The notes under the pieces are model-generated. The model made no database searches and was not told the origin of the DNA. It saw only the letters and a list, made by a program, of their open reading frames with translations. The translations under genes and the position numbers were made by a program. Source: Heterotrichella gracilis (taxonomy: Eukaryota; Sar; Xanthophyceae; Tribonematales; Xanthonemataceae). Taken from it: a stretch of 64,000 nucleotides of DNA. The stretch spans positions 1-64,000 of the forward strand of contig JAULBX010027495.1 of NCBI GenBank assembly GCA_032358255.1, read 5' to 3'. Positions 4,694-57,193 of this stretch are shown piece by piece. Each line of letters starts with the position of its first letter. Position 1 is the first letter of the stretch.

Positions 4694-7600
4694 TCACGAG
4701 TAGGTGTATTCCTCTTCGCCTGCACGCCCTCCCTTGGGCTGCTGCCCAGCTAGGCTCAGCTGCAGCTCCTGGATGGTGCGCTGCAGGGCCTCGATCTCTT
4801 GCTGCTTGTGGACCACAAGGGGGTCGGTGGGAGGGAACGGGGCCTGTCAGGGGGACAAATCCAGTGGGGTTCAGAGCACCACTGGCGCAGGCTTGGAAGT
4901 CACAAACAGCATTGCAAGGTACAGCTGCAGATGTGTACGAAGTAACCATTCCCACCCCTCAATTCTCAAGTGCATGATGGCCATAGCCTGGCAGCAAACA
5001 CCCGCCCTGCACGCCACAAGATAAGCCATGCACAGCGGACTCACCTGTTGCTTTGTCCCTTTTTGCCCCCCTGCAGCCTCACCCCCTCGAATCCACCCCT
5101 CCCTGTTGTTCATCTCCCGCTCCACACGTGCCACCTGGCGATGCAGCTCCTCACGCTGCACACAGGGATGTTTGACCAGCATTGCAGAGGTTGCAGGGCA
5201 CGATTAAAACTTACTTGTGCACAGCCAAAAGGCGCCACATCGCCTCAGGAGCCAAAGCGCCTTAACAACAAAGCGCAAACCCCCATGACCACACAGCGTC
5301 ACACACCAGGAATCCCAGCTGCATGCTCCTTCATGTACATATTTGCAGCGCAACAAGTGCCCCCAATACAAGAACTGTTTAGGGTTTCCCACAATCTTGA
5401 CCGCAGCTTGCCTGGTGGCATGACCAGCGCACCTGCTTGTCCGTGAGCGCCCCCGTGGTTATGCCCAGCTGCTCGTCCTCGTAGTCATCGTCATCAGCAA
5501 ACTCCGCTGCCTGCTGGTCAGGACCGTCCTCCAGCACTGCAACGGGATGTGCCTGCAGCAAAATGGTGGATTGGGGTGAGCCGCTGCCATACCGCTGCAT
5601 GGGCTGGTGTGGCTGTGAGGCCACCGATCCGACATGCGCGAGGGTAGGGATGCGTGATAGGGCCACGACGCATATGGTGAGGGGTGTAGCCTGGTCCAGG
5701 TGCAGGTTATCCAAGCATACAGCAACACAGTTTAGAGCCAATGCCATGCCATGTACAGGCAACAGCGACACCCGCCAGCAGCATGGCCATGCACATTGTC
5801 CCACCTGCACTGATCTGGCCGCTGCGGTCTGCAAGACTGGCGCAGACGGCGCCATGCGGTGCGCTGTGGATGCTTGCCACGAAGGCACGACTGGTGGATA
5901 TGGGGTGCGACCGCCAGATGCCACTGGTGCTGGCGTAGTAGCTGCACCAGATGCGGTGCCGGCCCGCCCCTCCTTCCCCCCTCCCCACCCATCATCCTCA
6001 CCCTCAGCCTTTTCGTCAGCCCAATCAAGATCAGCGCCACCACCAGTTGGTGCACGGGGTGGTGCCACCCTAGATTGTGGAAGCGGTGTTGCGGGTGACT
6101 GCGCTTGTGTGTCTGCCGGCGCACGTGCTGCACCCTTGCCTTGCTGGTGCTTCTTTTTGTTGGCCTGCTCCATCTCAGCTGCTCTGTCAAGCAGAAATCC
6201 AGCAGCTGCTGCCGCGCCCTTCATCGCCGCAGCCATAGGGCCAGGAATGTGTTTGGGGGCAGCAGTGGTGGTCTCGCCCTTTAGTGGCGCTGCAGGCCTG
6301 CGGTCTGTGCTTTGTGATGGCAGCGGGCCTGGTGGTGGCTGTTCCTCTGTTTTCTCACCCCAGTCCAGGTCCACATTAGGCGCACCTTCAATTGGAGAGG
6401 CTGTCGTTTCTAATGACTGTGGCAGATTTTGCCCCCTTTTTGTATCAAACAGCTCCACCAGCTTGGTTTGCAGTACCTGCTGCGCCTGCTGGAGCTGCTG
6501 CTGGAGGGTGGAGGGGGGAACCCGTTCTGGCGGTGGGGAGGCTGGAGGAGGGGGGTGTACCACTGAACCGAAACCAGGCTTAGATGAGCCCTGAGCATCA
6601 TGACCTGTCGATGTGCTTGGTTGTTGACCTTCCCTGTCTGAACCGCCGCGCTCCCGCTTGCCCTCATCCCACCCCATGTTGGAGCGAATGGATGCAACGA
6701 CCCGCTCGTGGTACGCAGGCTCTCGGTCAGCTCCTGATTTGGGCTGTGCACCCTCCGCCACGGTGTCTACATGGCTGGGTCCACCATCCTCAAATGGTTC
6801 CAGCCCCAGCAGGACATTGTGCTCCACACCCCCTGTCCTTGCAAAGGCTGTGGCAGAGTGCGGCTGTCCCTGCGGCTGCCGCTGCTGCTGGGGGTTGTGC
6901 CAAAGTGACAGCGGGCCAGTGGTGCCTATCTCGGGGTACATAGCCGACATGGGAGGTGCGGAGGGCCGCTCCGAGGATGCAGCGGGGGAGGTGGGAGGCT
7001 CGCGGGGCGGCACGGTCGAGGTGAGTACATGATCAGAGCCCTGCGTGTGCATGGCACAACATCCACATTGTGGCAAGAAAAAGCAGTTGCGTGCTCATTC
7101 CTGTACTATAAGTGTTGCTTCAAGGCATGATAGCAGATTCTAGGAGGTAATACCCATGTGTACAGCGCCCATTGGAAATGCAAGCTACATGAACGTTGTT
7201 GCGTGCGTGCCAAGGCAACCCAGATTCCTCACCCTGAGTGGCTGCACATGCAGTGTGCTGTCCAAGGGGAGCAGGTCGGCTGTGGAAGGGTGGCCAGCGG
7301 CAATAGCAGCAGAGCGGGCAGTGCGGCCGTCCTGTGGGGGCACACGTACCACGGGTACTGTGCCATGCATGAGGATGACAGCTACCCATGGCTTACCCAG
7401 AGATCACGGCATTCAAAGCAAGAGAAAAACGCATCTACTAGGCTGCAGCAGTGCCCCATATGCCCCTCATGCCCACCTTGTCGACCAGCTTTGTGTTTGC
7501 TCCACAGGTCAACAGGCAGCGCACCACTTCCTTGTGCCCGCCAGCTGCAGCTTCATGCAACGCACTCTGCCCATCAATGTTGACCGCCTACATACACCAA

Positions 7601-17800: not shown

Positions 17801-20233
17801 AGGGTTCCACAGCTTGATGCTGTTGCTGGAGGCTGACAGCAGGAGGGAGTCGTCACTGGACAGGGCCACCGCGCGTATGTCAGACCGGTGGCCCGCCATG
17901 TCCACAGCACCGCTGCGGGAGCTGTCGCTCTCTGTCACCTCCCACACCTGATGGCCACAGTACAATGGTCTCCAAAGTGATGCACGGCCCTCTCAAGGGC
18001 AATCAGACAATAGTGGTGTACACAGTGCCAGGACTGCAGTGCTTGGCACAATAAATGCAAGGCTGGCTGCTAACCTAACTGCATTGCTGGTAACTGCATT
18101 GTAATAACCAACTCCTTGCAAAGATGTTGTCCAGGCACCCAAACAATGCATTGTGACATTTCCTGACAATCAGACAGTACGCTTCCTGGGCCTGCGCACT
18201 GCTCCACCAAGCACGCATACACCCTGTTCGCTGGTCTGTTGGCGCTACTTCCCCAGCCCGCCATACCTCCAGTGCATTGTTCGTCAGTGCCAATGTGATG
18301 TGAGCCAACAGGTGCTTCTTGTGTGCACTGGGTTGGACTGCAAAGGAGCTGATCTTGTGCTTGCTGCGGATCACCTGGAGGAGGACAAGGCAGTAATTGG
18401 GAAACATCATCCTCACCACGCCACACCTCACCACGTCACTTGAGCAAAAGTTTGTGTCACATCACACAGAATCATGCCATGTATCCATTTTTAATAGCAT
18501 GCAGGTGTGTGGTGGTTGCCATCAGGTACCTGCAGCGGCACTAGCTCGTCACTTGCGCTCAGCTCCTCCTCCTGCTCCTCCACTTCACCCGCCTCCCCTG
18601 CCTCCTCTTTTTTATCGTTCTTCTCCTTCCGCCGCCTCTTCCGCCGCTTGAGGTGCTTGGCCGCATCAGACTCGCTGCGCACACTGCGGGGGTGGAGGGG
18701 GGGGCTCACACGGCGTCAGGGGTACCGCATGTGGCGGCCCAGGCAGGACGCACAAGTATGCAATTAGATGTGTAGTAAGGACATTTACAATTATGGCGGT
18801 GGTAATACACGTGATGTGGACATAGCCATAGCGCCGTGCTGCAGATGTGCCCATGCTTACCGCATCACCTCAAGCACCTTGCCCGCTGCCTGGCACAGTA
18901 GCAGTTCACTATCGCTGTCACCAGCAACAGGTGTGTAACGCAGCAACGCCACCCGGTCCGCCCCCTGCCGCCGCACGCTGCCCATGGGCTGCAGGAAATC
19001 CCCTGAGGTTGATGCCACCCCCTCGTCATCAACCTCCTTGTCCTCCCCAGACGCGATCTGATACACCCGAATGTCGTTGTCCCCAGACCCCGTGGCCAAT
19101 CGCGTCTGGGCGGCGTTTACATCCAAGGACCATACCTCCCCCCGCTGCCCCACCACCGTCTGGCTGCAGTGCTGGGTGTCCAGGTCCCACACCTTCACAT
19201 GCCAGTCCTTGCTGCAGCTGACAAGCTTGTTGCCCCGCTCCACAAATACCTGACGGGTAAAGAAGGGAGTTTGTACAGGATGCGGCAGTGTATGCAACAA
19301 TCACGCCCCATGCAGGCTTCATTGTGCAATCGCCCATCGAGGTTTGCAACATGTAAAAGGGAGCAGGCACTGGGTCAATACAAGTCACCCTGTGCGCTAG
19401 TGGGGCATCACTTACCAGGTCTGTGACTTGGTCCTTGTGGCCCCTGAGACGGTACATGCCCACTTCACCCACCACATCCCACACAATCACGTCAGTGTCC
19501 TTGGACCCCGAGGCAAGAAGGGTGCCCAAGCGGTTGTAGCGCAGAGCGGTCACCGCTGTCTGTGCGGGGGGTGGGGAGTGGGGCGGTCAAGAGGCTGGGC
19601 AAAGAGAAGTGCAGAGTGGCACATATAGAGCAGCAGTGGGATGCACCACGGCAGCCTCACCTTGTGTCCACTGAACGTGACTGAACTCTCCCCGCTGTGC
19701 AGGTTCCACAGCCGAACCTGGGCAGAGGGTATCACCAGTCAGCACAGGTACCTGCCAAGCAAAGTCCCACAACGACACTGTTCAAAGTGCAGCTTTCCTG
19801 CACGGCAACAGTCCCAGTGGCACCCACAGAGTACTCACCTTGCCGTCTGCGTGGCCCACCGCCAGCTGCATACCACTTGGGTCAATCGCGATGTAAGTCA
19901 CCTCTGCAGGGGAACTCTCGTTGCTGGATACTGGAGGCACCAGTGTCCTGACCTGTATGTGAGGCGCGGAAGAGGATTTTCAAGCGTCTGCAAGAGCTGG
20001 CCTGCCGCCATTGACCCCAGCCCACATGCATGCATATGGCACGAATGCATGCATGCATCGTGCATGTTCATAACGACTCGTACCAGCGTCGCCTGCTTCG
20101 TATTCCATATCGTGACATTCTCCAGCGATGCGGTCACCACCAGGTTGCCGGAGAGCTCGTGCACTATGTTGGCGCTGCTGGCGATGACGCCAAACGTCGT
20201 GCCCAGCTCATAGCGCAGATAGGCCTTCACCAT
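14895..20233 (-). CDS. WDR3: WDR3/UTP12 (DIP2), UTP-B subunit of the small-subunit processome
   Basis: About 14 exons run from the ATG at 20233 ([17 protein letters not shown]) to a stop at about 14895. Approximate exons are 20085-20233, 19838-19951, 19665-19718, 19416-19560, 18861-19250, 18531-18685, 18266-18374, 17708-17951, 17248-17506, 16729-17003, 16210-16442, 15834-15981, 15400-15594 and 14895-15162. Two WD40 propellers are separated by a Lys/Arg/Glu-rich linker ([19 protein letters not shown]). Diagnostic blocks include [47 protein letters not shown] and [14 protein letters not shown]. The helical C-terminal UTP12 domain ([16 protein letters not shown]) ends in an acidic tail. Family knowledge: UTP12 binds U3 snoRNP within UTP-B for 18S rRNA processing in the nucleolus. 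The domain set is complete. Exact splice sites were not all verified. Confidence 0.95.
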
Positions 20234-41448: not shown

Positions 41449-43626
41449 CTAGTATGCGTAGTTTGCCGCCTTGTAACCGAATTTCTGAGAGATTTCGTCG
41501 CATGACTTGAGCTCCACTTTCTTGGCCCTGTCTGTGTACCCCATGCGCATCAGCTGCAGCTGCCTGAGCCTCTCGTTGTAGCACTGGTGCTCCAGCCGGT
41601 CCTGCACGGGGCATGGAGTAGGGTTTAGGGTTTATACTTTTAAATGTTGTAGCTGATGTTGCCGATCGCTGCTGCCGTTGGGGCGTCCTGGCGGGTGCAA
41701 GGTAAGGCTCAGGGTTTGAAGTTCAGAGTAAGGTGTAAAGTCCAGGGTTCAGGGTTTGGCTGATTGTATGTCTTGTTTTCCAAGTTGCTGCAGCTGCCAA
41801 CTGTCGAATGGATACGGACAAGGGTTTTGTGTGGTAGCTCATTGTACCTCTCGTCCTGGCTGGGTGCACATAGGAAGCATGGCTATGCAACATGGGAAGT
41901 GTTCACAAGCATATGAGGGATTGTTGCAGTACGTGGCCTTGATACCTCCACAATCGGCGCACAACTGCCCAAAGCTGAGCTGCCTCGGTTGTGCTGACAC
42001 CTAGGGTTCAGGGTGTAGGGATCTCCCCACGCACCTTGGGGTCCACCACCCAGCCGTGCACCAGACCGATGTATATCAGGTCAAAGATGGCAATCTCATC
42101 CGTGAACTCAAAAGTCCTTGACACCGAGAACGTGCACACTTAGGGTTTGAAGTTTTGTGCTGACACCAGGGTTTAGGGTTTTGTGCTGACACATAGGGTC
42201 TAGGGTTTGGGGTTAAGGGATTTTCCCACACACCTTGTACTCGATCTCAATCTTGTTTTCCAGGTGGATCCTGTCTCTGCTGTTCTCTGGGTGCTTCTGG
42301 TTGAAGGCCTCAACAGACTTGACAAAGTAGGGCACAGAGTAGCGCTTGGTCTGGAAGGGTTGCCGGTACTCCCCAGCGCTGTCCAAGCTGAAGGGCTTCT
42401 CGCCAGGCGATGACAGGAACGTCAGGGCCAGCAGCACCAGCAGCGGCAGCAGGTGCATCAAGTACGCCACGGGGGAGGGCGTGGTCTCCTGTTGCGCCTG
42501 CTGGGTGCCTCGGTTGGGACGCATGTTGTGGAACACCCTGCCCCTTGGGTGAGTACCGAAGGCTGCCCCAAAGAACATGTTGAACAGCTCCTCTGGGTCA
42601 ACGTCGTTGGAGAAGCCTGCTGGCTCACCCCTGCGCCCCTGGGACAGACCACTCCCCCGCCTGTCATAGTCTGCCCGCTTGTCTGCATCACTCAGGCAGG
42701 CAAACGCCCCACTGACGAGCTTGAAGGCCTCATCAGCGCCGTGGGCCTTGTTCTTGTCTGGGTGGAGCTTCAGAGCCAGGGTTCTGTAGGCCTTCTTGAC
42801 CTCATCGTCTGTGGCTTGCCCAGAAATGCCCAGCACCTCGTAGTGCGTTTTACACTTGCGGATCTTGGCAACCAGTTCAGCCTGTCGACAGGCGAATGCA
42901 GGGTCAAAAGGGAAAGGGTGGACTAGGAGTTTGTTGGCGTTGTGCACCTGCCTGTCTGGCATGTGAAGCATGGGGCGCACTGCCTAGAGTAGGGGAGGGG
43001 AAACTGAGTAGTCAAGGCAACAGCTAACGACTGCAGGAAAGGGGCAGGCTGCACACAGTGCACCGCCGTTCAAGCTACCCTAGCCAACCCCTCCTGCCAG
43101 ACCCGCTATCAAGCACCACACCAATTTGCAACAACAGCAATCGCGCATCCACACCTTGACCAGCAAGTGCTGCTGCATATACTACACCACCTGCATCCCA
43201 CCCAACCCCATCCCCAACCAAACCCAGCCGGTGCCACCACCACACCCATTCACCCACCCACCCACCCCTTGCAGTGACCTACTCGATGCATGCCCTGCAG
43301 AAGACGTGCACACAGATGGTGATGCAAGGGGTGCTGGGGTCGTTAAGGGTGCCTTGGTTCACCTGAACTGCAGTCCCCTGGCCACTGGAGCTGCTGGATC
43401 GCCTGTGTAGATCAGGAGCTGCTGAGGTGGAGGGCTGTGCTTGCTGCTGTGTGGAGGACCTCTCACCAGTGGCGATGACTTTCAATAGCAGGCTGGCTTC
43501 TTCAGAAGGGAATAGCCTTGCCGCTTTTTCTGCGAAGCGTTTTGCCTTGGCTAGGTCGCCACTGTGCAGGGCTGCTCGGGCTATGCTGATGCAACGCTCT
43601 GCATCTTCCTTGTTTGCAGCAGTCAT
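41449..43626 (-). CDS. DNAJB12: DNAJB12/DNAJB14-type ER membrane J-protein
   Basis: Exon 1 (43363-43626, 88 codons) starts MTAANKEDAERCISIARAAL, close to the N-terminal helical repeat of animal DNAJB12/14. Exon 2 (42234-42881) holds the J domain (THYEVLGISG, HPD in ALKLHPDKNKAHGADEAFKL), a Gly/Arg linker with MFFGAAFG, one membrane segment (LMHLLPLLVLLALTFL) and the start of the DUF1977 region (RYSVPYFVKSVEAFNQ). The last exon (41449-41601) encodes DRLEHQCYNERLRQLQ and VELKSCDEISQKFGYKAANY. A middle exon ending at 42035 (FTDEIAIFDLIYIGLVHGW) is likely, but its 5' junction is unresolved. Family role: an ER-anchored Hsp70 partner in ER-associated degradation with the J domain in the cytosol. 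Introns contain TTTAGGG-like runs, and intron 1 carries the HLTF-derived segment. Confidence 0.9.
42900..43362 (-). pseudogene. Diverged copy of the HLTF-like gene's RING exon and intron, inside DNAJB12 intron 1
   Basis: About 450 bp match 50475-50935 in the same orientation with many substitutions and indels. Shared landmarks in order on the plus strand are GTGCACCTGCCTGT, GCGCACTGCCTAGA, TTTGCAACAACA, CACCTGCAT followed by CCCACCCAACCCCATCCCC, and GATGCATGCCCTGCAGAAGA. The RING part reads LNDPSTPCITICVHVFCRAC, against [20 protein letters not shown] in the helicase gene. The copy ends in a stop just after the second Cys pair and lies directly beside the exon-1 donor of DNAJB12, in frame with that exon. 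It lacks the first CxxC of the RING, so it cannot make a RING finger. It is best explained as a duplication of host sequence, not a functional exon. Confidence 0.85.
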
Positions 43627-44244
43627 GATGCTCAAGGAGTTGCTGGCACGACGGCAAGCCTGGCGTTTGGCTATTTTATTGGGAAACCAAAACACACAAC
43701 ATGAGGATACTAAAACAAGAAAAAGGACTGCATATGTCGCTGTTATGCCTTATTTGAGTTTGATCAGGCAAAGGGAAGGGACCACAGCGTTAACAGGAAC
43801 TGTACTCGAATGTCAAATGAGCTCCCACCGCACCCGAAACAAAACCACACAGGTTTTTACTCCTATCCAACAGGGTATGCGCTGCATGTGGCTGATCGTC
43901 ACTGGTTTTTGAGGTTTGGTTCACACACACACGTGCCACGGCTTTTTTGGCGGCAGAGAAGCAATAAATCAATATGTTTTTAGTTGGCTTGGAAATGTTT
44001 TTTATTAATTTGTTGTTAAATGCAGTGGTAAAATGGCCTTATGTTCAAATAAATGAGTGATATCTACTGGGAAATGCATGTATCTCAGAACCCTTCGTGA
44101 TTGTTACTGAGAGCCTCCTAGGTCTCACAACAGTGGCCTCGCTGAGCAAAGTACGCACAATTGAATTGCTCAGACTGAGCAAAGGACGCGACAAATATCA
44201 CAACCACGCCTCCCTTACATTCACAAACCAATACAACCTCCCTT
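43627..44244. promoter_or_regulatory. Spacer with the DNAJB12-like promoter
   Basis: A 0.6-kb spacer between two minus-strand genes. It holds the promoter of the DNAJB12-like gene and the 3' UTR of the next gene. AT-rich around 43960-44060. Nothing else recognised. Confidence 0.4.
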
Positions 44245-47200
44245 TCACATTATCAACAGCTTGCGAGACAACTCCTGCTCCCACTGCTGCCAATCCACCC
44301 CCTTGTTGATCGCGTGTGTCTCTTCCCACGAATAACCCCCATACAGTGGGGTGTGCCCCCTCAGACCCCACTCCATGTAGCTCAGCAGCACACCCTGCAA
44401 CAGCGCACGAGGTGGGCAAATCACACAAGGCAGAGGGTTGTGAGACCAGGATAAGCGCACATAATCGGGCAAACCAACCGCACATGTACCTAAAAATGCG
44501 GTGACAGCCGTTTATGCATGTACATAGCGACATCCAACGCATCAATACACAACAATCTGTCAGCCAGGACCGGCATCCAATGCATGGCACAGCTTGCCTT
44601 GCCCATCCACCCACACGCTTAAGTGCAATGGATCCATTGCGCCTCCCGTGCCTACCTGCATGCGCTCTGGCGCAATTGAGGAGCGGTGGAATGGCCTGTG
44701 CGTAGGGTTGGCGTAACGCTGCGCCTTGGTGAGCACCTCACCCGCAGGCGCCAGGCGCAGCAGGGGGCCCGAGTCCACCAGGCGCTCAGCGCGCCAGGCC
44801 AGCCCCGGGTCACCACCTGAGCGCTCCTCTAGGCGGGTGAGCACCTGGGGTGAAGGGGGACCAGAGGGTGGAGTGACAAATAAAAATGCTGGGGGTGATG
44901 GCAAATGGCAGGTTGGTGATTGCACACAAAACTGCGTCCTAAATACGTATGGTGACCCACCAGGGATGTATCGCCCCTAAACTTGCGTATTTTGATTGAG
45001 AGGTGAATGCTACACCATGCATGCCTCCTCACCTTGGCCAGGAATGTGAAATCAAGTCTTGGCCACACAGGTCTGCTGTAGACCCTCACAAACTGCGTGT
45101 ACTTGCCCTCCACCTCGTAGCGCTGCCCGCTGTACATGGTTAGCTGCAAGCGGGGCGCATGGGTCAAGGGGGGTAAGCACAAGGGTGGTGGCATGTTCAT
45201 GATTGGAAATAATCTTTCATGTGTAAGGGGCATTGGTAGGGCAAGAATTGCTGATGCGTGCCGATGGGGGAGGATTTTGGGCATGTCTGCATGATATGGT
45301 CAAAATATCATGCGCATGCATACACGAGGGCACATGCCGTCAAGTACTTCACTGCCACATGCAGGGCGTGTTCTCCCGGAGGTGTGGCAACCTGATGCTC
45401 TTTGCATGTCCCAACTCGTCCCAGCAGCACCAATAACATTGTTGAGTTAACCACATGGTCGGTCTGACCACCATTTGCAAAAGCTTACCACCGTGTCTGC
45501 TCCAATGGTTGTGCTGAACATGGGGTAGTAGTGCAGCGGGTGGGGGGCAGCCACCACCGCCAGGCCCACGTGCGGGTGGAGGGTGAGTTGGCAGGAGGGG
45601 GAGTGGAGCAGCTGATACCCAGACATCACCTGTGGAGGGTGAGCGGAGGGTGATTTAGAGGTGATAAAGATGAGGCCGGTGGTTGTATGAGGGATGCATG
45701 ATTTTACTGGCCAGAACAGAATCAGCGGCTACAGCCCGAATGAGGGCACACTAGGTCAGTACCAGGTGTGGCATGTTGGCTGAAGCGGCATGGGCATACC
45801 TCAGGTGGGTGTTGCAACAGAAAGGGCACCCCGATAGCACCCTTAAGAACGCAGACTCCAAGCACAAGTGCAAACCAGCATGCATATGTATTCGCATTGC
45901 CACTGTGCTGCTGTGATCGTATCCAACCCCCAACCTCTCCCACCTCGTCGTACTGCTCCCCCCACACATCCCGGTACTCATCAGGCCGCTGCAGCACTCC
46001 CTCCAATTTTGGCAACATTCCAGCAAATTTTGCCTCCCTGTCCTCTGCCCCCTGCACCTCGAAAGGGGTGGTGTAGCACGACCGCTCAACCGCGTCCACC
46101 CAGCAGGCCACCTTGAGAGCTGCTTCCACTTCCCTGTGAGGAGTTTGTAGTGTGTTATCACCCCTTTGCATGCAGCTGTATTCACATGCAATCTTCACCA
46201 GCTGCACTATGGAGCATGGGGGTACATGGGGGGGGGAGCATGCCAAGGGGACATGCAGGAGCAGGTAGAACAGGAATCCCTTCCAGTCAACCAGTACCAT
46301 TCCATGCCTATGTGCATAGTATCAAGAAGACGCCTACTTGTGCTCACACATCTGAACAGCATGCACTTTAGTGGGGCGCTGCACTGCCAACAATTTCCCC
46401 TACCCTCTAATGCCAATTTCATCTGCCTCCCTGGCCCTCAATGAGTGCTCATCGTCCCCCAGCGCAGCCTCTCGGAAGTCGCTGATGCGCGCGGCATGGC
46501 GCAAGACTACGAAACAGGTGGGGACAAAGCATGGGTATTCATGTGGGTAGGTGGTAACAGTGAGGAACGGGAAACAAATTGGGCCAGCGCTTTTTTAGAG
46601 ATGGGTGCAGTTAACGATAATGCCCTGTCAGTCACCGCCTTTATGATTGTGGCATGTGGTAGGTGGGTGACGCACGGCCCCTAGAACAGGTTCCTCACAC
46701 TGAGTGCAGTATTGCTCGCATATATACCTCACCCCACCATTAATGGCCACTAGCATGGCATGGCCACTGGCACCACCCCACCTGTCCATGCATGTTGTTG
46801 GACCCTACCTCCACTGAACTGGTTTGCGATGTGTGGGTTGAGGTACGCCCACACACTGAACAGCGCATCGCCGTCAAAGTGGTTGCAGCTGACCGCGGGC
46901 CGCTCCCACACGCTCTCAATACCCTGGCTTAGGGCGTTGAGCACTATGCCAGTGCTTGTGTCAGCGGCGGCCACCCCAGGAGGGTTGCGGTGGCCCTTGT
47001 GGTGGGTGAGCGTGGGGGCGAAGGGGTGGGTGCAGTCAACCACAAGGGTGTGGTGCTCAAACTCGGGGGTTCTGTCTGTGGTGAACGGGACGTAGGTTCG
47101 GCCTTCGGCGGTGCCTTGGGCTCGTTTCTTGCGGCGGGGGGGGTTACGGCTCCCAGCTGGGTCTTCAACCACCACTACTTGCTTTGCCCACGGCAGGCAG

Positions 47201-47265
47201 AACACGGTGGCTGCAATGGCTGCAGGCAGCAGCACGTAATAGAGAAGCCGCGTCAACAGCAGCAT
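44245..47265 (-). CDS. Uncharacterised conserved protein with N-terminal membrane anchor (possibly DUF6687-like)
   Basis: The ATG at 47265 gives a signal-anchor (MLLLTRLLYYVLLPAAIAAT) and a basic linker (RNPPRRKKRAQG). The conserved-looking core follows: HTLVVDCTHPFAPTLTHHKG, GVAAADTSTGIVLNAL and VSCNHFDGDALFSVWAYLNP. Later exons (about 46440-46530, 45946-46140, 45490-45630, 45034-45143, 44658-44846, 44245-44398) encode DFREAALGDDEHSL, VACWVDAVERSCYTTPFE, MLPKLEGVLQRPDEYRDVWG, LAVVAAPHPLHYYP, LAWRAERLVDSGPLLRLAPA and a C-terminus containing YGGYSWEETHAINKGVDWQ. The HFDGDA and ADTST patterns recall an uncharacterised bacterial/plant family (DUF6687, from memory, not checked). The His/Asp motif might bind metal, but no function is assigned. 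Gene reality is supported by exon-long open frames with consistent style across seven exons. Confidence 0.7.
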
Positions 47266-48230
47266 TGCTGAATTCAAAGGGTCTCAGGTACGTTCATGAA
47301 TGAGGGTTGTTGGGAAGCAGCAAGGCGTACAGATCAGGGCTGCCAGATGGTATATGCATGCATGCATGCATGCATCATGACACTGATAAGGTGTGGCATA
47401 CAATTACTACGGTGGCATAGCATGAACCCACGAAACGTGCCTCAACTGCAAACAAGCCGACTTTTTGCGCGTTAAGTGCTCTTCCGCTTGAAGCCCAGCC
47501 CAAATTACAACAATAGGACTTGGGTAGGGTTTGGTTCACCACAACAAACCCTACGAAGTAGGGCGGAGAACTGTCACATACTTCGTGGTGACCTGCTTCG
47601 CCATATCTGCAGACAGGTAGGGTGGGCAGCCTTGCCCTGTAGTGAGCCTGTGCAAGCCTCTTCAACGCACCTGGTGCGTGCCACCGACCCCAGAGGGTTA
47701 CGTGCCATGGGGCCCCTTGTAGTAAGGTGCTCCATATGAAATGCAGCATATCTCGTTGAGGTGGTTGGGTGTCAATCAAAGGACGCGCCGGCCAATCGTG
47801 GATGCTACCTTCCACCAATGAAAGCACTGACATGCGATGGCAGAAGAGCCGCTGTTTAATGAGACACGTGGTGCGTTCTGGTCACTGACAGTCCAGTTGC
47901 AGTGGCACTGTGGCACCATTTTCCAATACCCTGGATGAGAGCAATAAGTACACAGTATTCAGTCTTTCATTGGCTGTTCAGCTTGCTCTCACGCTGGTGA
48001 TACTACTGCACAGTTTTCAAATCCTTTCCAAACCCACACGGGGTGACCCACAATCTCCTGTCGACAGCATCATGGTTTCAATGAGCCACAACGCCCCACA
48101 TGCATTGCGGCCCATATGGACCCTTGGCTAGGGTGTGGCAGTCCAGGCCTCCTCAAGGTGCAGACCCTTTGCTACAATAGTGAAGCCACCCAGTAAACCC
48201 TTCGCTAGGGCATTCCACCCCTTGCCTCCC
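47266..48230. other. Intergenic spacer with a TGCA microsatellite
   Basis: This spacer carries the promoter of the 44245-47265 gene and the 3' UTR of the HLTF-like gene. A (TGCA)n run lies at about 47353-47375. A minus-strand ATG-initiated frame of 152 codons (47375-47833) has no recognised domain and was not called a gene. Confidence 0.45.
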
Positions 48231-51200
48231 TCACAGCTCCATGAGCAGCTTGACGTCGTTGATGCGCACCTGGGGGGGCAAGGGGGGGGAGGAGGTCAGC
48301 CATGGGTGGGGTGCAGCGCACCCCCAGGACATACTAAGCAACCCCACTCGCCAAGCCTAAAGCCCACCTTGCTACTGCCTCTTCCCTTTCCACCACTCCC
48401 TGTAAACCCTGTTCACCCATCTTACCTGGCACACCATAAAACCCTGAGATTCCCCTGCTAGGTCTGCAAGTCATCCTCTTCTCCCTACCCCTGGTGGCAT
48501 AGGACACAGCAAATAGAAAGGTCCCCATCCTCATCATCTCCTTCCAAGACAGGCAGCTTTGACATTCTACTTCCCTTACATTTCCCCCTACACATACAAC
48601 AGATTCAACCCGAGCCCCAGCACCCACCTCCCGCGCCTTGTCCGCATCCCTCTTCTCGAACGCCGCATGCTGCAGGTGCTTCTTGTTCTCCTGCAGGGCC
48701 AGCATGCGCTCCTCGATGGAGTCGCGCGCAATGTACCGGTGCACACTCACGGGGCGGGTCTGTCCCATGCGGTGCACGCGGTCCATGGCCTGCGGGGGAA
48801 GGAGGGGGGAGACTGTTAGGGCCCTGTTCTGGTTAAAGTTTTTGATGTTGGGCGGTACATGCGGCACAACGATCATCTTTGGCATCGATGCACATACCCA
48901 TGGCCTGTATGACTAGGTGTCTGCCAGGGTGTCAGTACTGACATATCATTGATGTGGCAAGTCAGGTGTAAAGTCATGCACACTTGTTAGGTGTTAGAAA
49001 CCCTAACAGGTTTCACTCGCAGTATTTTAGGGTCTCTTCTGCGCGATTTCATAATGCACATAACATACCCCTGATTCCGCTGTTCCACAAAACCCCATTC
49101 TAGCATTTTACTTTTGGTATCAGGATTGACTTGGCTTTCCGCTCACCTGGTCCTCCACCGCTGGGTTCCACCAAGGGTCCAGCATGTGCACCGTTGATGC
49201 CGCGACGAGGTTCATGCCCACACCGCCCGCCTTGAGGGAGGTCAGGAACACCTGGGGGCTGGCTGCGGGGATGGGAGGGGGCGGGTGGGGATGGCGACAT
49301 GCATTGCAAATATGATTTGATGCCTTTTGGGGATGGGCAGGGCCGGTGGGATGGCGGGATGCATTGCGGGGATGGCATAATATGCATTGGGGGATCAGGC
49401 CTGACAAAAATGAAGCATGCCATTCATCCTGGTATTCTGCTGCAGTTGTGGGAGTGGGCTGATGTGGCATGATGTGGATTGGCCCCCATTTCCCCCACCC
49501 ACCAGGGTCATGTGACGAGAATGCCTTGACCACCTCCCCCCTGCGCTTGGCTGGTGTGCTGCCATCCAGCCGCACGTAGCTGATGCCCTCCTCCCTGCGG
49601 GGTAAAACCCTAGGGTTATGCAACAGTGGGAGGTGCCCACCATATAGCGGTAGGCTACATCCTTCCCCAGGGTGTGCTTAAATTCTCATCATTAGAATTT
49701 TCTTCTCAAAAGTATTTATCAAAGCCAATAAAATTTATTGGCATTGATGAATCCTATTGGCTTTGATCAATCCTATTGGCTTTGATGAATACTAGCACAA
49801 TTGAAACGTTTGGATGCGTTCAAATATTTCATACTATTAGCCATAATTTTATCGCAATCTCCCCTCCCACCTGAGCGCCACCTCCACCAGGTTGAGCATT
49901 GCATTGAACTGCGAGAACACAACGCTTTTCACGGCGCGCGGGTCGGACGATGAGGTGCCGCTTGCGCTGTCGCTGCGCAGCTGGCGGATGAGGGCAGATA
50001 CCTGAGGAGGGGGGGGGGGGGGGCATGGCGTGATGAGAGGTGCATGGTGCATGCAAGCAGGGACAATGCGATGCAACCAAGCACTGCCCCGCATTAGTTA
50101 AGTGCATGCATTCCAGCGATACAGCCAGAATTGGCAGTCTGCCTTTCAGATGGCAAAAGTACCCTGCACTACATGGCAAACCCACTCCCCTCACCCCCAT
50201 GTCTATTATTCAAATACCCCCAATGCAGTTGCTAAATCCATGGACTGTGTGAATATGAAACAAGACGCGCAGTACAATATTCCCCCCTCCCTCTCATCCC
50301 ACCGGCAGTCCCCCCTCACTTTGGCGCTGCGCTTCCCCCCTGGTGCCACCACCTCCTCAGGCTGGGTGTCCTCCTCACCCCCCTCCATGGAGGGCGCATC
50401 AATGAGCTCCCCTATGCGGATGTGGGCACGGCACAGGGGGCACAGGGGCTTGTCCTGAGGGGTGAAAGGTCCAGGCAGGGGTCAAAAAGGGAAAGGGGGA
50501 CTGCAAGGCTGCTGGTGGTGTGCACCTGCCTGTACAGTGTGTGAGGCATGTGGCGCACTGCCTAGATTGTGAGTAATTCTGGCAACAGCTATTGACTCAG
50601 GGAATATTCGAGGGAATAGGCTGCACACACACCTATTTTAATGCCATTTCACCTCCCCTTGCCAATCCTTTCTGCCAGACCCCCCTGAAAAGCACAATAC
50701 CATACCACACCAGTTTGCAACAACACCAATTGTGCATTTGCACCTTGACAACCATGTGTCGCTGCATATACCACATCACCTGCATTCCACCCAACCCCAT
50801 CCCCAACCCAACCCTTGCCGCCATGCACCCACCCTTGCAATGACTGACTCGATGCACGCCCTGCAGAAGATGTGCGCGCAGGGGGTGATGCAGGGGGCGG
50901 TGGGGTCGTTGAGGCACACGGGGCACTCGTCACAGCCGCCGGCCTGTGTGGGAAGGGGGAGGGGGTGTACATAGAATGCATGCAGCATGCAGGATCAAGT
51001 ACAATGCGAGTGAGCGCTCAATGTAAAACAATGCACTCAAATATATCGCCTACATTTGGTGTTCCAATTGATGACCGAGCATTCCAGCAGTGATCAGGTG
51101 TATGGTATTGGCTACATCGCACATTCGCATATTGTGAAGCCTAGAATGCTGGCGCAAATCCACTGTATCAACCAGCCCAGACCCAGCCTCTTCATCAATG

Positions 51201-54200
51201 CTGCACAACCCATCGCCCTACACATCCTAACCCCCTCCACACAGCACACCTACCAACCCCGACACCCCCACCTTGACCACCGCCACCAGCTTGGCCACCA
51301 GCTCCGCCGCGTTAGGTGGCGCCTCCCCACCACCGCCCAGCCCGCCTGCCCCCGTGGGTGCGGCCGCTGGGCACAGGCACGCGGCGTTGCATATCTGCCT
51401 GAGCCTCAGGATGATCTCCAGCACCGTGGAGTAGTTCTGCAGCAGGGTGTTGGCCTGCAGGTGGTGGCTGATGATGCGGCGGCCTGCGGGGGCGGGGGGG
51501 TGGGGGGGGTGATGTGGTGATGGTGGTGGTGGGTGATGATGCACGGGATGTGCGTGGTGTGCGGCCAGATGAGGGGTGGCTGTCGTCGGCAGGGGCGCTG
51601 TAGGCAGTATTGTGCCCTGTAGATCACATGCAATGGCACGGTGGCAATGGGGAGATGACACCATTCACTCCAGCCACAACCCCAGCGTCCCCCTTTCTCA
51701 CACACCCTCCACCCCCCTTCCAGCCCCCAGCACACAATCACCTCCCACACTCCTGCCTTCCAGGCGCACAACCACCACCCTACACCACCACACCCAATAA
51801 CCCCCCCCACCTTCCAGCTCCCATCTGTCGTACACCTCCCTGTCCTCCTTCTCCATGCGCACATCAAGCACCTGCACGTGCTTGGGGGGCAGGCTGAGCA
51901 GTGGTGCGCCCCCCACCTGCATGTCCTTGGTGCGGCGCAGGGCCACAGCAGCCATCAGGGCCTGCGGGGGATGGGAGGGAGGTGGGGCAGGGGGTGGAAA
52001 GGGGAGGGGAAATGAATCACGACCAACCTCGTATAATTTTATATATAATCACGTATAATCATTTGCTGATCTGGCTTTTGTTTTAATGTATGCAATAATG
52101 ATACAGTAAAAAGCTTATCAACATCATTTGACTAAATTACAATATACGGTGACATTTGACGATACAGTAATCATCTGACGTTCTTGTACATGACAGAACT
52201 TGGATTGCCCTGGGTGCTCCTCCTACCTGCAGCCTCATGAGCCCCGCTGGGTCCGCCATCTTGACGGGTCGCTCTATGGTGCGAGCAAACAGCGAGCGTT
52301 CGTGCAGCGGCTCCAGGCGCAGGAAGGACAGCAGGCCATACAGGTCCTGTGTGTGATGGGGGGCAAAGGGGAAGGGACTGAGTTGCAAGGGAGGTGCAGG
52401 GCAACTACTAAATATTTATCTGCGGCTTTCTCACTGCACAACATGCATTCGAGCAACACAATCAGATGAGCAGTCAAAATTGTACATGCAGCGCTACGCA
52501 CTTTGGCCCTGGCATTGCTCTACCATCTCTTGAGCTTGCAATCCCAGGTCCAGGCCGGTCAGTGTACTCTGTACACTGATCAACATGGCCAGTTCCCCCC
52601 TCCATTGCACACCTTGAGGTTGTTCTGGATGGGAGTCCCCGTGACAGCCCACCTGCGCCCCGCATGCAGCGCCGCCGCCGCCTTTGCCTGGTTGGTGCTT
52701 GCGTTCTTCACCATATGCGCCTCGTCAAGCACCACACGCAGCCACTGCACCTACAAATCGCCACAGGCACGAAAATTAAAGTGATTTCTTCCATTTGAAT
52801 ATCTTCAATTTCAATGTGAGGAATGAAATTAAAGGTAAGTGGCCATCAAAATGGAGTTTTGCAAGGAGCATTCGAGAAACCCTCCCATGCAAGTGGACTA
52901 CGTGGGAATGATTGGCTGGCCACCAGTACCTGCCCTAGGTCTGAATCCCATGTAGGGGCCGGGGGGGCAAATTGTAGGGGGGTTTTCATGCAGTTCCCTC
53001 AATTTGTTTGGCCGCCCATGCAACGAGGCTGGCCTGACCACAAACCCTGGTCTAGGGTTGAGCTGCATGCGCAGGATGGCACCAAGGGCGGAAGCTAGGG
53101 TTTAGGGTTTTCATTGCCCCCCCCCCACCTTTGTGATCCCTGTGTGTGCCCCTAGCTCCGCCGACAGCACTGAGTATGTGGTGAGCACCACGTCGTGGTC
53201 TGCCAGGAAGGAGGGGGTGCGCGTGCGGTCGGCGCCATGGTAGGTGTACACCTGAAGGGAAGGGGAGGGGGAGCCTTGAGGGTTTGTAGGGAAAGGGGGA
53301 AATGGAGTCATTGTTTTGGGGAGGAAAGCAGGCAGCAGGACGCTATTGGGTCATTCTGGTAGGGCTTGCAGGCCTAGAGATGGAGACCGCTGTGCACCGC
53401 ATACACCGTCAATTCATCAAAATACCCCACATGTGCACCTTGAAGTTCCCCTTTGTGTACATCGTATCATGCTCCCCCTTCAGACTGCCCTAAGCATGCA
53501 TCGTATAAGTCCCTCTGGAAATTCTCATATGCATGCATGCCTGGTATCATGAGATGCCACCTTGAGGTTCCCCTGTGTGTGCTCCTCCAGCTGTGCCTGC
53601 CAGTTGGACAGCACCGACAGGGGGCACACAATGAGGGTGGGGCGAGGGGAGGATGCCGGGGGTGGTGAGGGCGGTGGGGGTTCGTCCTTCACTGCTGGGC
53701 CGCCCCCGCGTGCGCTGGTCTTGGCAATGAGGCTGGCTTTGGCCTTTGGCTCCTTCTTCTCCTTCTGTGGAGGGTGGGAAGGTGGGAGTGGGTATGGATT
53801 GGTTATGGGATTGGTGCGATCGGTTAATGAAGCTTGGCGGTAGAGTGCTTATATGCAAGCATGCAATGCTGCTGTTGATGGGCTATGGTTTGATGCTTCG
53901 GTGCGGGAGCGAATATTACTGTGGGGTCAGGAAGGGACATCATGCGAACACATGCGCCCCCACCACAGCAAGGGTGATCATGAAAAACCATCGGCAAACT
54001 GCAAAATAATTTGTACAACAATCCCTCACCAGCCAGCGCCCATTCCCCACAGGTGACACACCCCACCAGTGGAGGCATATGTGGAGGCATATGATTGAGG
54101 GAGATGACCCTAAGAAACCATAACAAAAAAATCCCACCCCCTGCGCCACCACCCCACATCTGCCCCCTCCCCTATTTCCATTCCCCACCTTTCTCTTCTT

Positions 54201-57193
54201 CGAGGGTGGCCCCCCCTCGTCCTCGCCTGCCTCCTCAATGGTGACGGGGGGCAGGGTGGCGCCAGGGCGGTTGGTGGCGATCAGGGCTGTGGTTGCAGGA
54301 GGGAGATGATCAAGAGGGCGAGGGGATGGGGGTTGTGTGGTAGGAGTGAGGGTTCAGCACAGGCGAAGATGAAGGTAAAGAATGTATGGTCGGGACAAGG
54401 GCTGGGCAGTAGGGAGGGATGGTGGTGAGGGGGACGGTGGATGGTGGACGGTGGTGAGGGGGTGGTTTGGGTTGTGGGTGGAGGTGAGGGTGGCTTATGT
54501 ATGGTGCGCGACAGGGGGTAATTGAACAGGCAACAGCAGAGGTATATTTGTGGTGATTACGCCTGGTCCACACTGGAGAAAGCAGCGAGCATCATTCGTC
54601 ACTCGACTAGACAGGGTTGAGAAGGTAACATCCAATAGGTGCATAATGCAACTGATTGCAAGCCTACCTATGACGGTGAGGGTCTTCCCCAGCCCCATGT
54701 CATCCGCAAAAATGCCCCCCCTGCAACAAACAGCAAGCCATACATCAGGAGTTGACCGCAAAGCAAGTGCTGAACTCCGTGCTAATGCAAATTCCACTCA
54801 TGCACTGATTGAAAGGCATCCCCACATGTGTGCCCATGGTCGATCTCCCTGCTTTGTTTGTTTGTCGTCCCCGCTCACTTTCGCATACCGTGATCAGCGG
54901 ATCCTTATCCCCCCTCACCTGAGCGGCCCTGGGCGCGTGTTTGACATGAAGTTGGTGAGGGCATTCACGTACAGCAGGGGGCCACCGCCGCGCGACTGGT
55001 GCGGCTCCCAGAAGGGAGGCAGCCCGTTGACGTTCTCGCGCGCCACCATCCACGCCAGCGCCGCTTGCTGGTGCGGGAACAGGGGCGAGGTGACCTCCCC
55101 GTCTGCCTGCATGCGCTCCTTGAGCGCCTCCCCTTGCTGCATGGCTGGGGGGCAAGGGGTGGGGGTGTCAAGGGCTGGCCAAGATAGGTATTGCCAGTGC
55201 AGTGCAGAGTATTTGCCCTGCGCTTGCAGCCTAATTGCACAAGGGGTTAAAGAAGCACAATGTGGGGGGGCGGAGGGAAGGCACTGCCTGCTGTACGCAC
55301 AGGCTGTCGAGATCCAGGGCAAGGCACATTGGGGAGAAGAGGAGACAGCGGCAAGGGGGCGGTGGGTAGGAGGGTGAAGATGGCTGCATGGCAAGGGGGC
55401 GGTGGGTAGGAGGGTGAAGCTGGCTGCATGGCAAGGGGGGGGTGGGTAGGAGGGTGAAGCTGGCTGTATGGCAAACCTGGCACCATCAGAGGTAGCACCG
55501 ATGGTATATCGCCACTCTGCAGAAACTGTACCCACAGCACAATTCCTACCGTCACACCGTAACCCAAACCCTAGCAATACCCTAGCATGTACCCAACCCC
55601 TGGCCCGCACCCTTACCGTCAAACATGCGCTCCAGCCTTGACTCCAGCTCAGCCTTGGTCAGCCGCGCCTGCTCAGCTTCCGCCGCACGCGGCCCAACAG
55701 CAGGGGGGGCGTCCAAGCGGATGCCACCGGCCGCCAGGCGCGAGAGTACCTGCAGGCGCACAGGCACACATGGGGGATCGGTAATGCAATTGGAAGGACA
55801 TTGCCAGCTGGTGACCAGGTGGTGTGGGGTCTCGCGGCATTATATATCATCGCATCCCAAGTGTCCACTAGTGCCTCAAACACAGTGGATGCACGTGATC
55901 TCCCAAAACCCCAAAACCCGAAACCCTTGTGCATGGCACATGACTTGCCGCCACAGCGTGCACAAATTTATAAATATCACCAGCACATCCTACATCTGCC
56001 TCATCCATTGGATGACACTACCATGTGGTACCATTCTGGTGGGCAGTAATCGAGTGTGCTTACATGCTGCCTGCTCTCTGGCAAACCAAAAAAGTGCAGA
56101 TCCACCGGCATCTTGAACTTATTGTCGGTGCCACGCGGTACCACGCCCTCCACCTTGATCAGGGACTGGTCAATAAGAGGGGAAACCTGAGGGCAGGGGG
56201 CAGGCCAGGGGGAGCGTCAGCGCAACGGTCAGGGCAAGGGTGCGCCAGGAAATGCCCTGAAAATGGGGCTGGCACTTGGCACAAAATGTTTTCCTCAAAG
56301 TTTTGATAAATCATAGTGCATAAACAGGGAGTACATGGCGCGTGGCGACTGTCAGTGGATGGGGCACGGCTGTAACTCTTGGCAGTGCAGTGCCCTGCTT
56401 TTGTGTGTTGGGAGGAATGGCCATTTGGCACTGTGTTTGATGAAGCATGACATCTAGAGTGGGGAATGGTGCCTCTTTGGTGTTGCAACCGACATGGCAT
56501 GGGTTCTACTTACATGGCACACCACGTATCGCCCGATGTGGCCCACTTTCTCCCCCTGGACGTTGTCAACGCGCAGCGCCCTGCAGCAGCAACAAGCGCA
56601 TGGGATCCCCCCGCTGGGCATGGCGATTTTCTTGCAAGCGAAGTGTGCAAGCCAGCAGGGGATGCATGGTGCACTTCCAAAATGTAAGCAGTACAGATGA
56701 TGCATTAGTACCCGGCCAACGTCAATTCCATCAATACCCTTTAGGGTAGTGCACGTTAGGTTATGCAAGAAAACCCTTGGGTACATACCACTTGTCATAT
56801 GGGTTGTCAGGCTCCCGCACGAGCTCCACCATCTGCAAACCAGGTGCCCGCATATGTCAGGGTTTTCCCTCGCATGCACTACAATTTATCTGACAAGGCT
56901 GTCCATTGACCAGTGGCTTTGAGGCATGGGGGAATATACAATGGACCTGACACGCGCATTTGCAGTTTAAGATATGCAGTGGCTAGCAGCGATGTCCATT
57001 TTGCATCAAGTGAACAGGGTGGCTTGGTTTTTGCTTGGCCTCTTGATGAAGCTCTTGCTCATGGGCGGTGTCAGTTGTACAAGTTTACCTCTTTGTTATT
57101 GACGTGGCCTGTGTAGTACTGTATGCCGACAATACTTGTGGAATGCACTCCATAGCACACAAACCGGTCTTCGATGCCGTCCTGCACGCCCAT
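48231..57193 (-). CDS. HLTF: HLTF/RAD5-type helicase and ubiquitin ligase (HIRAN-SNF2-RING)
   Basis: About 21 exons. The N-terminal HIRAN domain spans three exons (57089-57193, 56789-56832, and about 56522-56580): [20 protein letters not shown], then [20 protein letters not shown]. The SNF2 ATPase follows: [10 protein letters not shown], Walker [42 protein letters not shown] in [31 protein letters not shown] and ALRRTKD. Between the helicase lobes sits a C3HC4 RING ([29 protein letters not shown] at 50323-50943). The C-lobe has [52 protein letters not shown] and [12 protein letters not shown], and the end [11 protein letters not shown] matches HLTF. In family terms it remodels stalled forks and polyubiquitinates PCNA. 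The SNF2 part carries a long acidic/Lys-rich insert (54190-53700). All domains look intact. Confidence 0.95.
49690..49800. repeat. AT-rich palindromic/tandem island in an HLTF intron
   Basis: A 19-bp unit (TCCTATTGGCTTTGATCAA) is repeated in tandem at about 49751-49788. The reverse complement of its core (ATCAAAGCCAATA) occurs just upstream at about 49717. The island is therefore part inverted, part direct repeat, and is far more AT-rich than its flanks. It could be a small hairpin-type element, but no target-site duplication was established. Confidence 0.6.
50475..50935 (-). repeat. Source segment of the copy found in DNAJB12 intron 1
   Basis: The first part of the HLTF-like RING exon plus the intron downstream of it. 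This is the intact member of the duplicated pair with 42900-43362, because its RING reading frame is complete and spliced to [13 protein letters not shown]. Confidence 0.85.
55350..55474. repeat. 40-bp tandem repeat, three copies, in an HLTF intron
   Basis: Unit GGCAAGGGGGCGGTGGGTAG plus 20 more bases, starting at about 55350, 55390 and 55430, with only one or two differences between copies. G-rich on the plus strand, C-rich in the transcript. Confidence 0.9.

Follow-up and report, generated by a model that had tools for sequence, protein, structure and literature searches.

Most new introns are of unknown origin, and intron 1 of a DNAJB12-like gene of Heterotrichella gracilis raises the question of where its sequence came from. 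Almost the whole of this intron resembles a piece of another gene, which offers a rare view of the origin of intron sequence. The source gene can be given a name here, with strong support for intron 1 and, for intron 2 of the same gene, with good support. Both genes of the intron 1 comparison lie in one stretch of 64,000 nucleotides of contig JAULBX010027495.1 (assembly GCA_032358255.1), referred to below as the window.

The DNAJB12-like and HLTF/RAD5-like genes

Analysis of the minus strand revealed three exons that joined in phase 0 to give a predicted protein of 354 amino acids (Table 1). The joined product matched the DnaJ domain (3.6e-23) and DUF1977 (2.1e-10), and this combination of a J domain plus DUF1977 identifies the predicted host as a co-chaperone of the DNAJB12 type. 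The best PDB sequence match of the protein was the J domain of human DNAJB12 (2ctp). The DUF1977 score improved from 0.0007 on the exon 2 ORF alone to 2.1e-10 when exon 3 was joined; as the domain was complete only after this join, the intron 2 junction was supported. The intron 1 junction was placed on frame, phase and a presumably gapless fit to human DNAJB12; the exon 1 product presumably resembles the DNAJB12 N-terminus. A search of the same genome for a second DNAJB12-like gene gave 25 listed matches, of which three were the gene itself and the other 22 lay in the J-domain region (query residues 69-215). One gene in this genome matched the N- and C-terminal parts. An orthologue search of viral and prokaryote contig collections gave 7 and 31 pattern matches, none of which was confirmed.

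The proposed source gene showed SNF2-type matches at 54495-54797 and 52583-52750, to one side of the RING exon, and a helicase C match at 49120-49677, to its other side, which is the minus-strand order SNF2-rel_dom, RING, Helicase_C of HLTF/RAD5. The RING exon matched zf-C3HC4 at 2.2e-8 on a 37-amino acid translation shifted by 3 nt, and at 6e-10 when it was joined with the next exon. RAD5 (6l8n) was the second row among the PDB matches of this gene, and its first exon presumably resembles HLTF. The preliminary description had traced the copy to the RING exon and adjoining intron of an HLTF-like gene, and this identity was supported. It had also called the two genes neighbours; they did lie in the same stretch, but ORFs with DUF6687 similarity intervened at 45.7-47.3 kb (45722-47283).

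Table 1. Features of the DNAJB12-like gene, the copied segment and the source genes (window positions unless stated)
Feature	Position	Strand	Remarks
DNAJB12-like exon 1	43363..43626	-	88 codons, ends CAG, phase 0; translation MTAANKEDAERC...GTAVQ
DNAJB12-like intron 1	42882..43362	-	481 nt, GTGAAC...CGACAG; predicted from in-frame phase-0 exon join
DNAJB12-like exon 2	42234..42881	-	carries the J domain, a hydrophobic stretch and the first part of DUF1977; PF00226 2.1e-23 on ORF
DNAJB12-like intron 2	41602..42233	-	632 nt; MINDY-like exon-intron pieces including both splice-site ends
DNAJB12-like exon 3 with stop codon	41449..41601	-	translation DRLEHQCYNERLRQL...; DUF1977 score rises on joining
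Copy of HLTF-like RING exon and intron segment	42901..43348	-	blastn to 50479-50914; own-genome searches
RING-exon relic up to stop TAG (43279-43281)	43279..43348	-	in frame with exon 1; read-through translation
HLTF donor-site relic GTGGGT	43260..43265	-	one extra G before; sequence, within the DNAJB12 intron
Candidate alternative acceptor AG	42984..42985	-	common to the HLTF intron; predicted from alignment and translation
HLTF/RAD5-like RING exon (source copy, open frame)	50833..50943	-	111 nt; zf-C3HC4 match
HLTF/RAD5-like intron after RING exon	50455..50832	-	378 nt, GTGGGT...CCTCAG, phase 0 both sides; predicted
MINDY-like counterpart of intron 2	L036 (C27 stretch) 5450-6130		piecewise alignment

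The copied segment in intron 1

A blastn comparison of 42401-43900 with 49901-51400 gave a single strong match, in which 42901-43348 aligned plus/plus with 50479-50914. The match contained 335 identical columns out of 476 (70%) and 68 gap columns, with an E value of 4e-62 against the whole window. With gap columns excluded, 84.1% of the 82 exon positions and 82.9% of the 328 intron positions were identical. The same-orientation alignment of about 450 bp between places 7.6 kb apart, which the preliminary description had reported, was thus borne out, the measured distance being 7578 bp. Its ends needed correction: on the HLTF side the match covered 50479-50914 and not 50475-50935, and on the DNAJB12 side the detectable copy began 14 nt inside the intron and did not abut the donor.

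Smith-Waterman alignment of intron 1 with the HLTF exon plus intron scored 285. Scores peaked at 35 in 500 dinucleotide shuffles, and at 34 when 128 other stretches of the window were compared on both strands (256 comparisons). Low complexity or chance was ruled out as the source of the similarity by the score of 285 against at most 35 in the shuffles, and the blastn match agreed with these controls. A filtered self-comparison of the window placed the HLTF/DNAJB12 pair as the strongest of three repeat pairs (E up to 1e-6), at 231 bits against 72 bits for the next. The two segments are a homologous two-place duplication. The direction of copying was from HLTF to DNAJB12, as the RING frame is open in the HLTF-like gene and broken by a stop in the DNAJB12 copy.

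Each copy was used as a query against the organism's own genome (68,512,230 bases, 903 contigs), and with either one the two known places were found among the matches listed. The DNAJB12-side query gave an extra partial match of 73 bp on C886, from a C-rich part of the query (43194-43267). As this search scores the best candidates only and skips very common words, these copy counts are lower bounds; a dispersed family of such length should have shown. No dispersed repeat was visible for the segment, with two long copies among the own-genome matches listed, and the occurrence at many unrelated loci that would have spoken against a two-gene copy was not seen beyond the two places and the 73-bp partial match.

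The predicted intron 1 consists of the copy for 448 of its 481 nt, leaving 14 nt on the donor side and 19 nt on the acceptor side. The alignment of these tails with HLTF was no better than chance (p 0.71 on the donor side and 0.50 on the acceptor side). To the eye the homology might extend as far as the HLTF acceptor or the DNAJB12 donor, but these values did not support it. The copy therefore fills intron 1 without clearly supplying its splice sites. Divergence (K80) was approximately 0.19, being 0.184 over the 82 exon positions and 0.196 over the 328 intron positions. The duplication is real and old and makes up nearly all of the predicted intron 1.

The preliminary description had placed the copy in intron 1 of the DNAJB12-like gene, in frame with exon 1, and translation agreed with this. 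It had also proposed that a short protein would result if the exon 1 donor were skipped. The predicted read-through product was indeed 115 amino acids long and ended in ...CRACIE*, with the stop TAG 27 codons past the donor, but the relic showed no coding constraint, and an in-frame join would come about by chance in 1 of 3 cases. Across the 82 exon positions aligned, the relic differed from its source at 3, 5 and 5 of 27, 27 and 28 first, second and third codon positions. By eye, five RING Cys/His positions were kept and the first CxxC pair was absent. The relic looks like the product of neutral decay, with changes free of coding constraint and no RING kept.

The candidate acceptor at 42984-42985 would add 34 in-frame codons (42882-42983) upstream of exon 2. 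According to the alignment, the pyrimidine tract ahead of this AG lies within a stretch that is missing from the HLTF copy. The HLTF-intron-derived 42882-42983 is an open in-frame extension of exon 2, and its exonisation is possible.

Intron 2 and a MINDY-like gene

Intron 2 matches a third gene, a similarity absent from the preliminary description and found here. One piece of the intron (41988-42125) matched contig C27 over 149 bp with 81% identity (E 1.2e-34) and another (41646-41800) over 156 bp with 72% identity (E 1.9e-12). Two exons of the C27 gene scored as MINDY deubiquitinase (5.4e-15 and 1.6e-23); a third ORF gave no match. Intron 2 and the MINDY intron gave a poor global alignment, and piecewise matches were used instead, with the order of the exon relics judged by eye. 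Intron 2 contained the decayed end of a MINDY exon plus its donor (90% identity over 137 aligned positions, gaps excluded) and the decayed start of the next MINDY exon (89% over 45 positions). The ends of intron 2 matched both ends of the MINDY intron, over 68 positions at the donor (42168-42235, 85%) and 36 at the acceptor (41599-41634, 86%), and when the alignment was left unrestricted these end matches ran 2 and 3 nt into the adjoining exons before stopping. The K80 of the intron 2 pieces was 0.11 to 0.16, somewhat below that of intron 1. When the genome was searched from both sides, the matches over 80 bp were on C498 and C27 only, among the matches listed; the other 36 of 40 rows were shorter, many of them on the CCCTAAA-rich part.

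Six query stretches, totalling about 23.2 kb outside the segment, showed, apart from the known pair and self matches, nothing longer than 93 bp; they mix exon, intron and intergenic DNA and serve as a rough background only. Against this background the presence of two gene-derived introns out of two in one gene looks unusual. A separate 15-kb query yielded 80 candidates, of which 39 were scored, and 42 matches; it was dominated by a short repeat, with its own place and the known pair unlisted, and among the matches listed were those on C27 plus others of at most 106 bp.

In the MINDY-like gene itself, two consecutive putative exons had all four of their edges echoed in the adjacent introns, three of the four with a splice site. 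These echoes were found at L036 5212-5492, 5668-5900, 5927-6128 and 6242-6419, approximately 95-195 bp away, and several of the copies were beside CCCTAAA repeats. The CCCTAAA/TTTAGGG motif was about 8- and 18-fold over the base-composition expectation in L036 and L038 (11 and 18 found) and near expectation in C498:1-94000 (16 found, 12.3 expected). TTTAGGG-like repeats together with the gene content suggest an alga.

Routes to the present introns

For intron 1 we consider it fairly probable that DNA-templated ectopic repair of the SDSA type copied the HLTF segment into the DNAJB12-like gene, creating or replacing the intron. Approximately 440-450 bp of the HLTF/RAD5-like gene, starting within the RING exon and stopping shortly before the end of the intron that follows, would have been copied at the DNA level. 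The copy would have entered the DNAJB12-like gene, about 7.6 kb off, in unchanged orientation and between codons 88 and 89. The inserted product would now be removed as the predicted intron 1, either created or almost wholly replaced by this event, and the RING relic would then have decayed neutrally. Since the copy carries both exon and intron sequence, its template was neither an excised intron nor spliced RNA but DNA or unspliced RNA. With only 33 nt of the intron lying outside the copy, creation or replacement is favoured over the enlargement of an older intron; these 14 and 19 nt are too little for a normal surviving intron. The preliminary description, accurate on the facts, went further than the evidence both in reading an intron being built or enlarged and in proposing the truncated protein. 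The separate gene-derived copy in intron 2 also speaks for the repair reading. We infer the splice sites, the repair pathway and the choice between creation and replacement, and lean slightly towards creation.

At a K80 near 0.19 the event is too old for its junctions to be read. The absence of a decisive signature at the apparent intron 1 breakpoints counts against the repair reading, and the viral and prokaryote contig collections yielded no orthologue lacking the intron, which counts against a gain. No terminal inverted repeats were found at the intron 1 copy, the score being matched in 96.7% of 1000 shuffles. A near-repeat (CAGGTGAAC/CAGGCTGAAC) was present across the junctions with a p of about 0.02 in 20,000 simulated junctions; as a target-site duplication this is weak and was not relied on, and 26% of conserved Drosophila introns have repeats of at least 5 bp on their flanks (PMC3443670).

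A human survey describes 824 closely linked repair-mediated duplications attributed to SDSA, of up to 619 bp, defined by an ad-hoc distance bound of 5 kb (PMC2671141). The present case resembles these in being a local copy of a few hundred bp (448 bp, two places among the matches listed), and the donors reported in that survey include partial exon and intron pieces, with copies in introns. It differs in that the copy is nearly the whole host intron, derives from another gene and lies 7578 bp from its donor, beyond the 5 kb bound, and in that its breakpoints are too old to classify by that scheme (PMC2671141).

The main alternative is that an intron was already present at this position and that recombination or gene conversion either put the HLTF segment into it or exchanged it for that segment, enlarging or refreshing an old intron without making a new one. 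This overlaps the replacement branch of the repair reading, and we regard it as a serious possibility that falls short of being probable. The splice signals at both junctions are ordinary and not clearly derived from HLTF, and intron 2, whose splice ends match those of the MINDY intron, suggests that an intron sequence can pass whole from gene to gene in this genome; however, just 33 nt of non-HLTF sequence are left, so nearly the whole of the old intron would have had to go. Taken more widely, both DNAJB12 introns may have been gained from HLTF-like and MINDY-like exon-intron pieces, with ectopic copying as a working source of introns in this lineage, a proposal that we offer tentatively and with some doubt.

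Intron transposition, in which an excised intron is reverse-spliced into the DNAJB12 mRNA and then copied back, would explain why intron 2 and the MINDY intron have both splice-site ends in common. It requires that only intron sequence moves, but the intron 1 copy holds 82 aligned HLTF exon positions, so that the explanation fails for intron 1 and is very unlikely overall. Elements of the Helitron and Pack-MULE types capture gene pieces, and a transposable element of this kind or of an Introner family could have carried the segment, with the weak near-repeat across the junctions as its trace. Two long copies among the matches listed, the lack of terminal inverted repeats in the intron 1 copy and an HLTF-side match that ends inside an exon make this highly improbable. 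Some Introners do take splice sites from target duplications, but family size in that survey ran from 5 to more than 2,000 copies (PMC9860276). The sharing of intron sequence with the intron of another gene, at both splice ends for intron 2, is a likeness to intron transposition and to Introners as those sources present them; the differences are two copies in place of a family and the exon sequence in intron 1 (PMC3443670, PMC9860276).

A review lists 5 unambiguous cases of intron gain through break repair and 14 through intron transposition, describes the evidence for break-repair gain as indirect, being similarity to mitochondrial rather than nuclear DNA, and refers to thousands of novel introns that the proposed mechanisms leave unexplained (PMC3443670). 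Possible sources were reported for four inserted segments in Daphnia, where one new intron was similar to a ribosomal RNA gene (PMC4202315), and mitochondrial matches were reported in a Drosophila study (PMC3296678). The DNAJB12 intron is like the cases described in these two sources in that filler DNA would have entered a coding region and then been spliced; it is unlike them in that its source is the exon-intron boundary of a protein-coding gene. A literature search by the topics of intron gain and break repair found no title on such a case.

That the RING relic is in use as an alternative exon, encoding a short, regulated protein that contains half a RING, deserves the least credence, since its reading frame shared with exon 1, which chance gives one time in three, and its five Cys/His positions kept by eye are set against an internal stop, the missing first CxxC pair and codon-position changes of 3/5/5.

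Exon relics within an intron label the direction and extent of copying, which similarity between introns only cannot do. Scanning algal genomes for such relics would gauge how frequently gene copying fills or makes introns.

Further repeats were observed around these loci. Short dispersed repeats of about 60-100 bp, with a core of roughly ACATGCATTCCAGC.ATACAGCCAGA, were present at 50094-50152, 18008-18113 and 52441-52533 and in tens of places in the genome. Local direct repeats were common: among repeat pairs within 1 kb in 192 kb of sequence, 51 were direct and 3 inverted, in a sample biased by the many loci chosen for carrying a short repeat. The region C498:78269-85372 (L041, L042) contained diverged direct repeats of up to 1.2 kb, perhaps a tandem gene family.
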